Assembly (NCBI GenBank): GCA_003220315.1
Contig: QHSA01000140.1
Location: 1 to 49,491, forward strand
Direction of reading: 5' to 3'
Length of the DNA: 49,491 nt
Source of the DNA: Candidatus Rokuibacteriota bacterium
GTDB lineage: Bacteria; Methylomirabilota; Methylomirabilia; Rokubacteriales; CSP1-6
Shown here: in pieces, positions 1-33,390 of the stretch
Position numbering within the stretch: the first letter of the stretch is position 1
How the letters are laid out: each line of letters starts with the position of its first letter
Position numbers and translations under genes: made by a program
Notes under the pieces: generated by a model
Told to the model about the DNA's origin: nothing
The model's database searches: none
Seen by the model: the letters and a program-made list of their open reading frames with translations, nothing else

Positions 1-636
1 GTGGCGGAGTTCTTCAAAGCCGATGCGGAGAAGAAGGGCATCAAGGTTCTCGGCTTCGAGGGCACCGAGGAGAAGTCGAACTTCGACCCCATCATCACCC
101 CGATCAAGGCGAAGAATCCGAACGTCATCTACTTCGGCGGCATCTACGACCAGGCGGCGCCGTTCTTCAAGCAGACCCGGGAGAAGGGCGTGAAGTCGAA
201 GTTCCTGGGCCCCGACGGCATGGACTCCTCCGACCTGACGAAGATCGCCGGCAAAGCCGTCGTCGGGATGTACTACACCTCGGCCGCCGGCCCGGCCTCG
301 GCCCTGCCCAAGGCCAAGGCCTTCGTCGAGGACTTCAAGAAGAAGTTCGGCAAGAACCCCGAGCCGTACGCCGCCGAGGCCTACGATGCGACCGCCATCG
401 CGCTCAAGGCCATCGAAGCCGCGGCCAAGAGCGGCAAGCTGAGTCGCGAGGACGTGGCGACGGCGGTCCGGAAGACGAAGCACAGCGGCATCACCGGCGA
501 GATCGAGTTCGACACGAAGGGTGACCGGAAGAAGGCGCTCTACTTCGTGCTGCAGGTCGCCAGCGACGACCCGGCGAAGTGGGGCGACAACAAGATCGTC
601 AAGCAGCTGACCATCGCCCCGCCCGAAAAGAAGTAG
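1..636 (+). CDS. livK: Branched-chain amino-acid ABC transporter, substrate-binding protein (5' truncated)
   Basis: This is the C-terminal part (211 residues visible) of a type I periplasmic binding protein of the LivK/Peripla_BP_6 family, which captures amino acids or related small molecules outside the inner membrane for an ABC importer. The visible part has the second alpha/beta lobe with VIYFGGIYDQAAPF and the family stretch AAEAYDATAIALKAIEAA. It ends with ITGEIEFDTKGDR, a typical closing strand. The reading frame is open to base 1, so the GTG there is probably not the true start, and the signal peptide lies outside the window. It precedes livHMGF on the same strand, which supports the assignment. 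The ligand cannot be deduced. Confidence 0.9.
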   Translation: MAEFFKADAEKKGIKVLGFEGTEEKSNFDPIITPIKAKNPNVIYFGGIYDQAAPFFKQTREKGVKSKFLGPDGMDSSDLTKIAGKAVVGMYYTSAAGPASALPKAKAFVEDFKKKFGKNPEPYAAEAYDATAIALKAIEAAAKSGKLSREDVATAVRKTKHSGITGEIEFDTKGDRKKALYFVLQVASDDPAKWGDNKIVKQLTIAPPEKK

Positions 637-639
637 CGC

Positions 640-793
640 AGGAGACGAGACGGTAGACGTCGAAGGGCGGGCCGGGAAGCTCTCCGAGACCCGTAGCTTC
701 TGGGGGTCGACCGGAGCTGGCGCGGTGGGCAGTCACCCAGCGCGTTGCCGCTAGCGTGGTCGAGGAGAGCTCCCGGCCCGCCCCTCGTCTCTA
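640..793 (+). repeat. Family 1 structured intergenic element, copy 1
   Basis: This gap between livK and livH folds into one long interrupted stem. Bases 665-685 pair with 764-784 with a single bulged A. Outside that, GAGACGAG (642-649) pairs perfectly with CTCGTCTC (784-791). A small GACG/CGTC hairpin sits between the two left arms. Inside the stem are the blocks GAGACCCGTA (686-695), CTTCTGGG (697-704) and TAGCGTGGTCGA (752-763). GACC and GGTC can pair next to facing GA/GA steps that could form tandem sheared G-A pairs. The region between these blocks can form two more hairpins. A second copy with the same blocks and spacing lies at 33234-33390. It matches no RNA class I recognise. The last paired base is 6 nt before the livH ATG, which has no Shine-Dalgarno sequence of its own. 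Confidence 0.75.
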
Positions 794-797
794 ACGT

Positions 798-1769
798 ATG
801 GACTACCCGCTCCTCCTCGGCATCTTCCCGCAAGTCTTCCTCGACGGCATCATCCTCGGCTTCATGTACGCGCTGATCGCGCTGGGCTACACGATGGTCT
901 ACGGGGTGCTCGAGTTCATCAACTTCGCGCACTCCGAGATCTTCATCGTGGGCGCCTTCGTCGGCGTCGAGCTCCTCCTCGGCCTCAAGAGCGTCGGGCT
1001 GCTCGACGGCCTCCCCTGGCCGCTCGTCTTGTTCCTCACCCTGGTCGCCGGCATGGCCGCGAGCGGGCTGCTCGCCGTCACCGTCGAGCGGGTCGCCTAT
1101 CGTCCGCTGCGCAACGCGCCCCGGCTGATCCCGCTCATCTCGGCGATCGGAATCTCGTTCTTCCTCCAGGACCTGATCCGGCTCTTCGAGTCGCTCTGGC
1201 GGAACGCCTTCAACCTCGTCTACCCGACGATCGATGTGCTGAATCTCCGCTTCGAGCTCACCGAGACCATCGACGTCTCGGTCAAGTCACTCGTCGTCAT
1301 CGTCGCCGCGTTGCTGATGCTGTGGGCGCTCCACGTGATCGTCAACCGCACGACGATCGGGACCGCCATCCGCGCGGTGGCCGAGGATCAAGCGGCGGCG
1401 AGCCTCATGGGCATCAACGTCAACCGGATCATCTCGCTCACGTTCCTGATCGGCGGGGCGATGGGGGGGGCCGCCGGCGTCTTGTTCGGCGTCCAGTACG
1501 GACTGATCAATCCCTACACCGGGTTCATTCCGGGGCTGAAGGCCTTCACCGCGGCCGTGCTCGGCGGCATCGGCAACATCCCCGGCGCGATGCTCGGCGG
1601 GCTCGTGCTCGGGCTGCTCGAGGCCTTCGCCGCCTCCTATCTGTCCCTGCTCACGGGGGGGGCGTTCGGCGCCGAGTACAAGGACATCTTCGCCTTCTCG
1701 GTGCTCATCGTGATCCTCATCTTCCGACCCAAGGGCCTGCTGGGCGAGATCGTCCGAGAGCGCGCGTGA
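798..1769 (+). CDS. livH: Branched-chain amino-acid ABC transporter permease LivH
   Basis: LivH-family inner-membrane permease of 323 residues, the usual family length. It forms the translocation pore with LivM. The hallmark N-terminal region is present (GYTMVYGVLEFINFAHSEIF, near residues 33-52), followed by about eight hydrophobic segments. The cytoplasmic coupling region follows (AVAEDQAAASLMGINVNR), then the C-terminal GLKAFTAAVLGGIGNIPGA motif. The ATG at 798 is the first start in frame after the structured element. No clear ribosome-binding site precedes it, so translation may depend on the leader fold. The stop overlaps the livM GTG by 4 bases, implying translational coupling. Confidence 0.95.
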   Translation: MDYPLLLGIFPQVFLDGIILGFMYALIALGYTMVYGVLEFINFAHSEIFIVGAFVGVELLLGLKSVGLLDGLPWPLVLFLTLVAGMAASGLLAVTVERVAYRPLRNAPRLIPLISAIGISFFLQDLIRLFESLWRNAFNLVYPTIDVLNLRFELTETIDVSVKSLVVIVAALLMLWALHVIVNRTTIGTAIRAVAEDQAAASLMGINVNRIISLTFLIGGAMGGAAGVLFGVQYGLINPYTGFIPGLKAFTAAVLGGIGNIPGAMLGGLVLGLLEAFAASYLSLLTGGAFGAEYKDIFAFSVLIVILIFRPKGLLGEIVRERA

Positions 1770-2968
1770 GCCTGTACTCCGTCCTCGCCACGGCCGCCGT
1801 CGCCCTGTCCAGCCTCGCCGTCGCGACAGCTCCACGCTCGGTCCTCGCCTTCCTGGCCTTCCAGGGCGCGCTGCTCTTCGTCTACCTGGCGCGGATCCCG
1901 ACGTGGCTCCGGGTCGGTCTCCTCGGGGTCGCCCTGCTGCTGCTGATGCCCCTGATCGGGGCCTTTAACGGCTACTACCTCGAGGTGGCGACGCAGGTCG
2001 GGATCTTCGCCGCGCTGGCGCTCGGCCTCAACATCGTGGTCGGCCTGGCCGGACTGCTCGACCTCGGCTATGTCGCGTTCTTCGCCGTCGGCGCCTACTC
2101 CTGGGCCATCTTCGGCTCGCCGCACGCGAACGTCATCTTCGGCGGCGGGTTTCCCCTGGCCGGCGTATGGTTCTACGCGTTCCTGTTCGTCGGGCTCTTC
2201 GTGGCGGCGATCACCGGCATCCTCCTCGGGCTCCCGGTGCTGCGCCTGCACGGCGACTACCTCGCCATCGTCACCCTCGGCTTCGGCGAGGTCATCCGCG
2301 TTCTCGCCAACAACCTCGACAAGCCGATCAATCTCACGAATGGCCCGAAGGGCATCACGCCGATCTCTCGCCCGCCGGCGCCGCTCGGGCTGCCCTACGG
2401 CGAGTACTTCTACTTCCTCGTCCTGCTCATCGTCGTCGTGGTCGTCCTCGTGAACCGCCGGCTCGAGGACTCCCACATCGGCCGGGCGTGGGAGGCGATC
2501 CGTGAGGACGAGCTGGCGGCGCGCGCCATGGGGGTGCCGCTCGTGCGGATGAAGCTCCTGGCCTTCGCTTGCGGCGCGTCCTTCGCCGGCATCATGGGTG
2601 TGCTGTTCTCGGCCAAGCAGGTGTTCATCAATCCGGAGTCGTTCACCTTCCTCGAGTCCATCGGCGTCCTGGCCATGGTGATCCTCGGTGGGATGGGCTC
2701 CATTCCGGGCGCCGTGCTCGGCGCCACGGTCGTCACCGTCCTCAACCTCCAGGTGCTGAAGGGGCTGTCGCTCTGGCTCAACGAGCTCAAGAACGCCGGC
2801 GTCACCGTCCTCGGCTACAGCCTCGCCGACCTGCCGACGCAGTTCGAGCCGGCCAAGTACGAGCGGATGATCTTCGGCGTCATCCTGGTCCTCATGATGA
2901 TCTTCCGCCCCCAGGGCATCCTGCCGGCCCGGCGGCGGCAACGAGAGCTCGCTCACCTGGAACGGTAG
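1766..2968 (+). CDS. livM: Branched-chain amino-acid ABC transporter permease LivM
   Basis: LivM-family permease of 400 residues, partner of LivH. The GTG start at 1766 overlaps the livH stop (GTGA). The frame stays open upstream of it, but that part is livH read out of frame. Several N-terminal hydrophobic helices are followed by the LivM signature ALGLNIVVGLAGLLDLGYVA and by LPVLRLHGDYLAIVTLGFGE. The coupling segment AIREDELAARAMGVP and a C-terminal LGGMGSIPGAVLGA come next. The length is toward the upper end for the family because of an extra hydrophobic N-terminal segment. The stop codon is followed immediately by the livG ATG. Confidence 0.95.
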   Translation: MSLYSVLATAAVALSSLAVATAPRSVLAFLAFQGALLFVYLARIPTWLRVGLLGVALLLLMPLIGAFNGYYLEVATQVGIFAALALGLNIVVGLAGLLDLGYVAFFAVGAYSWAIFGSPHANVIFGGGFPLAGVWFYAFLFVGLFVAAITGILLGLPVLRLHGDYLAIVTLGFGEVIRVLANNLDKPINLTNGPKGITPISRPPAPLGLPYGEYFYFLVLLIVVVVVLVNRRLEDSHIGRAWEAIREDELAARAMGVPLVRMKLLAFACGASFAGIMGVLFSAKQVFINPESFTFLESIGVLAMVILGGMGSIPGAVLGATVVTVLNLQVLKGLSLWLNELKNAGVTVLGYSLADLPTQFEPAKYERMIFGVILVLMMIFRPQGILPARRRQRELAHLER

Positions 2969-3760
2969 ATGGCGGCCCTCTTCGACGCCCGAGGGGTGAC
3001 CAAGCGGTTCGGCGGCCTCACCGCGCTGCAGGCGGTGGACTTCGCGCTCGAGTCGGGCATCGCGTCGATCATCGGGCCGAACGGCGCGGGAAAGACGACG
3101 CTCTTCAACATCTTCACGGGGCTCTATCCCGCCGACGAGGGCAGCGTCACGTTCCGCGGGCGAGCGCTCTTCGGCCTCCGCCCCGACCAGATCACGGCGC
3201 TCGGAATTTGCCGGACGTTCCAGAACATCCGGCTCTTCGCGAACATGACGGTGATCGAGAACGTCCTCGTGGGCATGAACTCGCGCATCGCGCTCGGTCT
3301 GTGGGACGTCCTCTCGCACGGCCCGCGCTTCGCTCGGACCGAGGCGGACCTCTCGACGCGCGCGGTGGCGCTGCTCGATCGCGTCGGACTCCAGGCGAAC
3401 GCCAACGACGTGGCCCGCAACCTTCCGTACGGCGACCAGCGCCGGCTGGAGCTCGCCCGCGCGCTCGCCTCCGAGCCCGCGTTGCTCCTGCTCGACGAGC
3501 CGACCGCCGGGATGACGCGGACGGAGGCCGGCGCGCTCATGCGCCTGCTGCGCGAGCTCGTCGTCGACCTCGGGCTCGCCATCATCTTGATCGAGCACAA
3601 CATGCGCGTCGTCATGGAGGTGTCCGACCGGGTGACCGTGCTGGACCACGGCGAGAAGATCGCGGAAGGGCCCCCGCGCGAGGTCCAGAGTGACGCGCGG
3701 GTCATCGAGGCGTACCTCGGCACGCGCGGCTCGGCTCCCCAGAGGGCGCGCCGTGCTTAG
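2969..3760 (+). CDS. livG: Branched-chain amino-acid ABC transporter ATPase LivG
   Basis: Cytoplasmic ATPase of 263 residues that powers the LivHM permease. Walker A is GPNGAGKTT (36-44). The signature region is LPYGDQRRLELARAL, an accepted LivG variant of LSGGQ in which D replaces the second conserved Q or E. Walker B is LLLLDEPTAGM. The H-loop lies in ILIEHNMRVVMEV, and the C-terminal extension typical of the BCA_ABC_TP_C family is present. The ATG abuts the livM stop with no gap, so the two are probably translated together. The livF GTG lies inside its 3' end. Confidence 0.95.
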   Translation: MAALFDARGVTKRFGGLTALQAVDFALESGIASIIGPNGAGKTTLFNIFTGLYPADEGSVTFRGRALFGLRPDQITALGICRTFQNIRLFANMTVIENVLVGMNSRIALGLWDVLSHGPRFARTEADLSTRAVALLDRVGLQANANDVARNLPYGDQRRLELARALASEPALLLLDEPTAGMTRTEAGALMRLLRELVVDLGLAIILIEHNMRVVMEVSDRVTVLDHGEKIAEGPPREVQSDARVIEAYLGTRGSAPQRARRA

Positions 3761-4454
3761 CGTCGATTCGCTCGACGTCGCCTACGGTGAGATCCGGGCA
3801 CTCAAGGGCGTGGGGCTCCAGGTGGGCCGCGGCGAGATCGTCACGATCCTCGGCAACAACGGCGCCGGGAAGACGACGACGCTCAAGACGATCTCGGGCC
3901 TCCTCCAGCCCCTGCGCGGCACGATCACGCTCGAGGCCGAATCGCTCGTCGGGGTGCCGCCTCACGAGATCGTCGGTAGAGGCGTCGCGCACGTGCCCGA
4001 GGGACGGCGGATCTTCAACCGTCTCACGGTCCGCGAGAACCTCATGATGGGCGCCTACCCGAGGCGCGACGCGGGGGTCCCCGCCGACCTCGAGCGCGTC
4101 GTGACGCTCTTCCCGAGGCTCAAGGAGCGGATCACGCAGGTCGCGGGCACGCTGTCGGGGGGCGAGCAGCAGATGCTCGCCATCGGCCGCGCGCTGATGG
4201 CGAACCCGAGACTCCTCCTGCTGGACGAGCCGAGCATGGGGCTCGCCCCCGTCCTCGTCGAGCAGATCTTCGACACGATCGCCGACATCAACCGGCAGGG
4301 GACGACGATCCTCCTCGTGGAGCAGAACGCCGCGATGGCGTTGTCGATCGCGCACCGGGGCTACGTGCTCGAGACCGGCGCCATCGCGCTCGCGGGAACC
4401 GCGACGGAGCTGGCCGACAACCCGGAGGTCCGCCGGGCCTACCTGGGGGAGTAG
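3753..4454 (+). CDS. livF: Branched-chain amino-acid ABC transporter ATPase LivF
   Basis: Second ATPase of the liv system, 233 residues from the GTG at 3753. That start overlaps the end of livG by 8 bases and gives the usual LivF N-terminus (VLSVDSLDVAYGEIRALKGV). Walker A is GNNGAGKT (34-41), the signature is LSGGEQQMLAIGRAL, and Walker B is LLLLDEPSMGLAP with the Ser-Met-Gly variant usual in LivF. The H-loop lies in ILLVEQNAAMALSIA. It is the last gene of the operon. Its final 16 bases overlap the 3' end of the convergent glycosyltransferase. Confidence 0.95.
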   Translation: MLSVDSLDVAYGEIRALKGVGLQVGRGEIVTILGNNGAGKTTTLKTISGLLQPLRGTITLEAESLVGVPPHEIVGRGVAHVPEGRRIFNRLTVRENLMMGAYPRRDAGVPADLERVVTLFPRLKERITQVAGTLSGGEQQMLAIGRALMANPRLLLLDEPSMGLAPVLVEQIFDTIADINRQGTTILLVEQNAAMALSIAHRGYVLETGAIALAGTATELADNPEVRRAYLGE

Positions 4455-32515: not shown

Positions 32516-33190
32516 ATGCCTGGCAAGATGGTGGAGTTTCCGTCGAACGGCACCAAGACGTCCGCGTACCTCGCCACGCCCGCGGCCGGCAAGGGGCCCG
32601 GCGTCCTGGTCATCCAGGAGTGGTGGGGTCTCGTCCGCCACATCAAGACCGTCTGCGACCGGCTCGCGACCGAGGGGTTCACGGCGCTCGCGCCCGACAT
32701 GTACCACGGCAAGACGGCGAGCGAGCCCGACGCGGCGGGCAAGCTCTTCATGGCGCTCAACATCGCCCAGGCCGAGAAAGACCTGCGCGGCGCCGCGCAA
32801 TACCTCGCGGGCCAATCCTCCACGAAGAAGCTCGGCGTCGTCGGCTTCTGCATGGGGGGCCAGCTCGCCCTCTACGCGGCGACGCTGAATCCGACGATCG
32901 GGGCGTGCGTGAACTTCTACGGGATCCACCCGAACGTGAAGCCCGACTACTCGAAGCTCTCGGGTCCGGTCCTCGGCCTCTTCGCCGAGAAGGATGGCTT
33001 CGTGACGCCCCAGGTCGCGAAGGAGACGGACGCGGCGATCAAGAAAGCGGGCAAGCAATCGGAGATCCACATCTATCCGGGCGTGGACCACGCGTTCTTC
33101 AATGACGAGCGGCCCGAGGCGTACAACAATGCCGGGGCGGCCGACGCCTGGAAACGCACGCTCGCCCTCTTCCGCCAGCACCTGAAGTAG
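32516..33190 (+). CDS. Dienelactone hydrolase family protein
   Basis: 224-residue alpha/beta hydrolase. The nucleophile elbow is GFCMGG with C112. The acid is D159 (AEKDGFVTP) and the base H191 (GVDHAFF). The spacing matches the Cys-Asp-His triad of dienelactone hydrolase. The conserved QEWWGL and PDMYHGK are also present. It hydrolyses dienelactones of chloroaromatic degradation or related esters; many members have unknown natural substrates. ATG 32516 is set by AAAGGAGGT 8 bases upstream. It is the last gene of this plus-strand run. A CCGGCC/GGCCGG hairpin (33191-33210) follows the stop directly and may end transcription. Confidence 0.93.
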   Translation: MPGKMVEFPSNGTKTSAYLATPAAGKGPGVLVIQEWWGLVRHIKTVCDRLATEGFTALAPDMYHGKTASEPDAAGKLFMALNIAQAEKDLRGAAQYLAGQSSTKKLGVVGFCMGGQLALYAATLNPTIGACVNFYGIHPNVKPDYSKLSGPVLGLFAEKDGFVTPQVAKETDAAIKKAGKQSEIHIYPGVDHAFFNDERPEAYNNAGAADAWKRTLALFRQHLK

Positions 33191-33233: not shown

Positions 33234-33390
33234 CAGACAGCCTGAGTGTCTGCGGTGCGCTGAAGAGGGCGGGGCCGGGAGGCCGTCCGAGACCCGTATC
33301 TTCTGGGCGTTGCTTCGGCGAAACCGAACGGATGGCGCTGATGTAAGGAGTGGTAGCGTGGTCGAGGACGGTCTCCCGGCCCCGTCCCAC
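33234..33390 (+). repeat. Family 1 structured intergenic element, copy 2
   Basis: The element lies between the convergent dienelactone hydrolase and rplQ genes. Bases 33267-33288 pair with 33366-33388 with one bulge and one G-T. The internal blocks GAGACCCGTA and CTTCTGGG (33289-33307) and TAGCGTGGTCGA (33354-33365) match copy 1 at all but one position, and the distance between blocks is 46 nt against 47. The lower-stem sequence differs from copy 1 (CCGTCC/GGACGG in place of CTCTCC/GGAGAG), so pairing is kept while bases change. The variable interior can form a UUCG-capped hairpin. A CAGACA/TGTCTG hairpin (33234-33252) precedes it. Confidence 0.75.

Follow-up and report, generated by a model that had tools for sequence, protein, structure and literature searches.

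A family of long hairpins with a conserved tip and freely varying arms in genomes of Candidatus Rokubacteria

What is the long hairpin that separates a livK-like from a livH-like gene in this bacterium, and why does it recur between two convergent genes? In the window, by which we mean the whole 49,491-nt stretch that was analysed, long hairpins occur at these two places alone. Copy A occupies positions 664-785 on the forward strand (94.4 bits with the covariance model R1, E 8e-18 over the whole genome). The livK-like gene, encoding a periplasmic binding protein (end at 1-636, forward strand; Pfam Peripla_BP_6, 2e-30), stops 27 nt before it, and the livH-like gene for a branched-chain amino acid permease (798-1769, forward strand; BPD_transp_2, 1e-41) begins 12 nt past it. 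Copy B (33267-33387, forward strand; R1 114.5 bits, E 1.9e-22) lies downstream of a dienelactone hydrolase family gene (32528-33190, forward strand; DLH, 3e-57) and ends about 10 nt from the stop codon of the convergent rplQ, for ribosomal protein L17 (33398-33871, reverse strand; Ribosomal_L17, 4e-36). Copy B has an orthologue in the related genome G003 (C24:8856).

In copy A the 5' arm (664-685) pairs with the complementary 3' arm (764-785) around one bulged A, and the stem runs outward to about position 661. The arms enclose a 5' core, GAGACCCGTAGCTTCTGGG (686-704), conserved in 15-90 copies, an inner variable region of near-constant length (705-751), and a 3' core, TAGCGTGGTCGA (752-763). 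The corresponding conserved blocks of copy B are at 33289-33307 and, as an exact match to TAGCGTGGTCGA, at 33354-33365. A first-pass annotation of this DNA had placed the two copies at 665-784 and 33267-33388, boundaries that move by only a nucleotide here. The three blocks that it saw in both, GAGACCCGTA (686-695; from 33289 in copy B), CTTCTGGG (697-704; to 33307) and TAGCGTGGTCGA, do leave gaps of 47 and 46 nt, and the closing stem of more than 20 bp indeed has arms that are complementary within each copy yet different between copies.

The pair belongs to a much larger family, which we denote family 1. The 3' core occurs exactly 16 times in the 4.26 Mb source genome and its reversed control not once, which places the family far above chance. 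The R1 search finds 25 matches with E<1e-5 in the same genome, giving about 25 copies of the hairpin, and up to about 26 are present per related genome. The hosts are soil bacteria of the Candidatus Rokubacteria (Rokuibacteriota), known mainly from metagenome-assembled genomes. Within one Candidatus Rokubacteria family, the covariance model detects the element in 36 of 57 genomes; among 38 genomes from other families of the phylum it detects none. Known RNA families were ruled out, since Rfam gave no match at or above the gathering threshold and the evalue mode returned microRNA matches at chance level only; an origin in plasmids, phages or viral contigs was likewise rejected for want of a match in any of the three. 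We found no description of such a repeat in the literature on Rokubacteria. The proposal that these hairpins form an undescribed family, with stems that covary and inner blocks that stay fixed, has thus held up: the search of relatives with a covariance model, which its authors had recommended, recovered further copies, and none of the outcomes they had named as damaging (no copies in relatives, no covariation, an Rfam match) was found. Two contigs of G000, C188 and C192, terminate in almost identical element and flank sequence (the end of L079 at C188:9944-10017 and L092; 98.8% identity over 249 nt), so that one locus may have been counted twice, and the assembly breaks at hairpins.

Each element is about 122 bp long and consists of two complementary arms flanking a near-fixed tip module, composed of GAGACCCGTnnCTTCTGGG, 45-50 variable nucleotides and TAGCGTGGTCGA, with a core-to-core length of 77-79 nt in most copies. 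The arms measure 20-45 bp, and their sequence differs from copy to copy while always matching itself within a copy. An alignment of 15 copies resolves a covarying stem of 22 bp, a G.A/A.G step, a GACC/GGTC helix, a bulged T and C-G/G-C pairs. Double-sided changes affect 21 of the 29 stem pairs and number 84, against 27 in shuffles, and 92% of cells are paired, compared with 72% in shuffled and 44-55% in slid alignments. Covariation in the stem is therefore overwhelming, and the stem has been selected for pairing. The G.A/A.G step can also be swapped as a unit for Watson-Crick pairs: GAGACC/GGTCGA is replaced by GCGACC/GGTCGC in L121, L074 and L066 and by TCGACC/GGTCGA in L067, and in L118 GACC/GGTC becomes GAGC/GCTC. 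These replacements indicate that the core helix is structural, and they support the tandem G.A pairs that had been suggested from copies A and B.

Within the inner variable part, an extra covarying helix gives weak signals only. Sequence identity of the inner part (0.57-0.84) is often well below that of four-fold sites (0.63-0.85); the few control intergenic gaps diverge equally, and hypermutation of the inner part is therefore not claimed. Four copies are longer variants with inner lengths of 90-91 nt (L062, L063, L064 and L151), some of them from other genera, and may form a distinct subfamily. One copy in G000 (L096, C205:596-694) is degenerate and lacks GAGACCC, unlike its intact orthologues in G002 and G003.

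The mismatches tolerated in the stems are not symmetrical between strands. Read on the core strand, family-1 stems contain 67 G.T but 26 A.C mismatches (p 2.5e-5, with orthologous copies not being independent of each other), and the excess persists whatever the direction of the neighbouring gene (23 G.T against 9 A.C in antisense copies alone). One strand is thus selected to fold. RNA and single-stranded DNA cannot be told apart on this evidence, which fits both; a duplex or a cruciform would not produce the bias. This strand-specificity bears on the idea that the hairpin is a chromosome-level DNA site, similar to REP or BIME, bound by gyrase, a nucleoid protein or the replication machinery with no regard to gene direction. 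Such a site would suit the orientation of the copies, which is indifferent to genes and flipped between genomes at 4 of 15 orthologous sites, as well as the preference for convergent and same-direction gaps and the tolerance inside genes. Against it stand the bias of G.T over A.C and the freedom of the arm sequence; the GC skew is too weak for calling the direction of replication. We consider a DNA site of this kind improbable.

Comparison of orthologous loci shows that the elements were inserted in the past. Six species from two genera have comEC genes with an in-frame insertion of about 124 nt that the other genera in the comparison lack; G024 carries the empty site (29 nt). Among the comEC orthologues the core has remained 0.93 identical while the variable part has fallen to 0.65, and the core's reading frame is 0 in G002 but 1 in the other copies, so the constraint is on the nucleic acid. 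In the linker of ligD, core 1 lies antisense in five species, of which G002 has an inner part of another subfamily than the rest. The cores of resident in-gene copies have been kept, which suggests that selection acts in place as well as at transposition. Around half of the copies are shared as orthologues among G000, G002 and G003; the evidence for mobility therefore concerns the past. A mobile repeat, one of the options that the first-pass annotation had kept open, is borne out by these insertions into genes and gaps and by the second tip found at the same sites (see below). No target-site duplication was seen, and none can be delimited in the GC-rich flanks of the clear insertions. It is almost certain, in our judgement, that the family is real and was formerly mobile.

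Elements have also come and gone, or changed their tips, at fixed sites. At site B of C188 the close relative G002 is empty; G000 has core 1 and G003 has core 2, with the outer arms kept and the inner arms and tip changed together. The same joint replacement of inner arms and tip within kept outer arms is seen at C58:25009 in G002. G002 is empty at site A too, and other genomes carry the element there in either orientation. Such presence and absence at orthologous sites is a feature shared with MITEs.

The tip first met in G003 defines a second family, recovered by the model R2. Its tip is NNGY-GAGTGTCGTTCCGA-RCNNA, 23 nt long, and is flanked by long variable arms as in family 1. R2 places it at loci L242-L271, L287:9982-10048, L143:3156-3222, L219:1444-1510 and L217:2065-2132, with 12 copies in G000, 11 in G002, 19 in G003 and 28 in G013; 22 of 56 genomes from the bacterial family have it, and none of 38 from outside. 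Family-2 stems show the same direction of bias (19 G.T, 3 A.C). Of the 22 genomes with family 2, 20 carry family 1 as well (Fisher p 0.001, uncorrected for phylogeny), and the two share insertion sites: at two sites one species has tip 2 where its relatives have tip 1. In the ligD linker, tip 2 takes the place of tip 1 in G003 and G013, and R2 puts it at this region in G033 too.

The livK-livH site of the window has its own history. Its counterpart in G002 is a palindrome with no core, whose outer arms are homologous to those of copy A and which is joined at an AGCT common to both arms, the pattern that a slippage deletion would leave; the hairpins of G001 and G003 are also coreless. Together, the site comparisons indicate that tips are lost, gained and exchanged while the outer arms can persist. 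Template-switch correction of quasi-palindromes is a known mutational process, and it might keep any palindrome perfect and so yield covariation with no selection at all. The slippage-like deletion in G002 would agree with such self-perfection, as would the arms of convergent copies, which extend into both gene ends. The process leaves the conserved tips and the G.T bias unexplained, however, and of the 18 long hairpins present in 398 kb of G002, 17 belong to family 1 or 2 (one of them a variant identified by eye and R2), implying that palindromes lacking a tip neither arise nor persist. We therefore regard mutational self-perfection as very improbable.

The position of the copies relative to genes speaks to what the folded strand might do. 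Among copies with callable neighbours, 24 lie in convergent gaps, 30 between genes of the same direction (21 antisense, 9 sense), 3 in divergent gaps and 11 inside predicted genes; this location, mainly in convergent or unidirectional gaps, is shared with REP/RAYT systems. Copies typically start or end within 10-40 nt of a stop codon. The flanks beyond the arms contain no conserved tag or promoter-like sequence, and a promoter belonging to the element was accordingly rejected. With mixed orientation, near-empty divergent gaps and in-frame copies in comEC and ligD, the element is no simple regulator of the following gene, in agreement with the earlier view that a riboswitch for that gene does not fit. 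At L080 an inverted family-1 pair of one divergent subfamily (2903-3024, reverse strand, and 3996-4116, forward strand; 1 kb apart) flanks pilin-like genes with N-terminal FTLLE motifs, which we read as a local duplication.

The strongest rival to a mobile element is a hairpin useful to the host at the ends of messages, where a tip-binding protein or an RNase III-type enzyme might process or protect the 3' end and, for example, raise livK over livHMGF. REP hairpins in other operons raise an upstream over a downstream gene in this manner. The livK-livH position fits, all the more as each of the four species keeps a long hairpin there, including those that have lost the core; so do the toleration of G.U on the core strand in both families, the near-constant length of the inner part, and copies that stand a few nucleotides behind stop codons and are nearly absent from divergent gaps. 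Of the 41 same-strand or in-gene cases, however, 26 have the core strand antisense to the host gene and 15 have it sense, cleavage inside comEC or ligD would harm the message, and the arms have no conserved promoter-like flank. An RNA element of this type is possible, though on balance we doubt it. Of the functional RNA that had been proposed from the two copies in the window, selection for the folding of one strand stands; a role as RNA is weakened by the antisense majority and by the G.T bias that antisense copies show too.

By its behaviour family 1 resembles REP and MITE repeats, yet it fails their defining features, namely a short, conserved and tagged stem, conserved terminal repeats and a RAYT. 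Like REPs and REPINs, it is made of interspersed palindromes mostly in convergent or same-direction gaps, sometimes intragenic, with frequent G.T stem pairs and a function argued at the RNA or the DNA level (PMC3733652). REPs of the GTAG and CGTC families have conserved stems of 5-13 bp and a GTAG or CGTC tag, and those of the CGTC family likewise have no dedicated transposase (PMC3733652); stems of family 1 are 20-45 bp, free in sequence and untagged, and it is the tip that is conserved. ERIC, Correia/NEMIS and RUP elements share with it a size of about 100-200 bp, long stem-loops if transcribed, intergenic and intragenic sites in mixed orientation and the lack of a gene of their own, but conserve their terminal inverted repeats (PMC2229807), whereas the ends of family 1 are its least conserved part and its arms differ between copies. 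Rickettsia palindromic elements, of 105-150 bp, also sit in frame in unrelated genes, with several families per genome (PMC10969869, PMC2229807); they conserve an encoded peptide, in contrast to the comEC core, which is conserved as nucleic acid and read in different frames. STAXI and other candidate structured-RNA motifs likewise have a covarying structure and an uncertain RNA or single-stranded DNA role, STAXI having been proposed as possibly single-stranded DNA (PMC2864571), but family 1 has no sequence or Rfam match and is interspersed at about 25 copies per genome.

A conservation almost confined to the tip, a stem free to vary as long as it pairs, and a strand-specific tolerance of G.T point to a folded single strand recognised by a factor. 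We propose that a protein supplied in trans would recognise the folded strand, as RNA or single-stranded DNA, by its tip, G.A and bulge features with any arm sequence, and that the same protein would copy or place the element, with a preference for gaps that follow stop codons and for palindromes already present. Spread or maintenance would then depend on folding, and resident copies would be retained as hairpins that fold and bear a tip, and may slightly affect messages at the ends of genes. Our best reading is accordingly that family 1 represents an old and mobile hairpin, REP/MITE-like in kind and obliged to fold as a single strand; to the mechanism with a trans-acting factor as described we give about an even chance. 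What argues against this mechanism, besides the target-site duplications that were not seen, the many orthologous copies and the cores kept inside genes, is that no mobilising enzyme was detected: in the copy-rich genomes G000-G003, G006 and G027, neither the Y1 (RAYT) transposase (PF01797) nor a reverse transcriptase (RVT_1, PF00078) had a match. A REP system with a RAYT was ruled out on the former result, which separates family 1 from REP/RAYT systems in its copy-rich genus, and a reverse-transcribed element (retron or group II) on the latter.

A bolder version, tentative and in our view rather unlikely, holds that a small fixed tip is placed and exchanged at palindrome centres by a machinery that reads the folded strand and not the ends, with the two tips competing for sites. 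If true, these would be mobile or self-renewing hairpins of a new class. Two tip families at common sites lend themselves to a clean test of the spread and swapping of hairpins. The interspersed repeats compared here conserve their ends or their stem; family 1 conserves almost nothing except its tip and leaves the stem free if paired. With family 2 it accounts for nearly all long hairpins in the examined stretches of these genomes, and the two explain some odd linkers in comEC and ligD, which is of use for annotation. We conclude that Candidatus Rokubacteria carry interspersed palindromic repeats of a new sort, and there is a genuine possibility that they are more than that.
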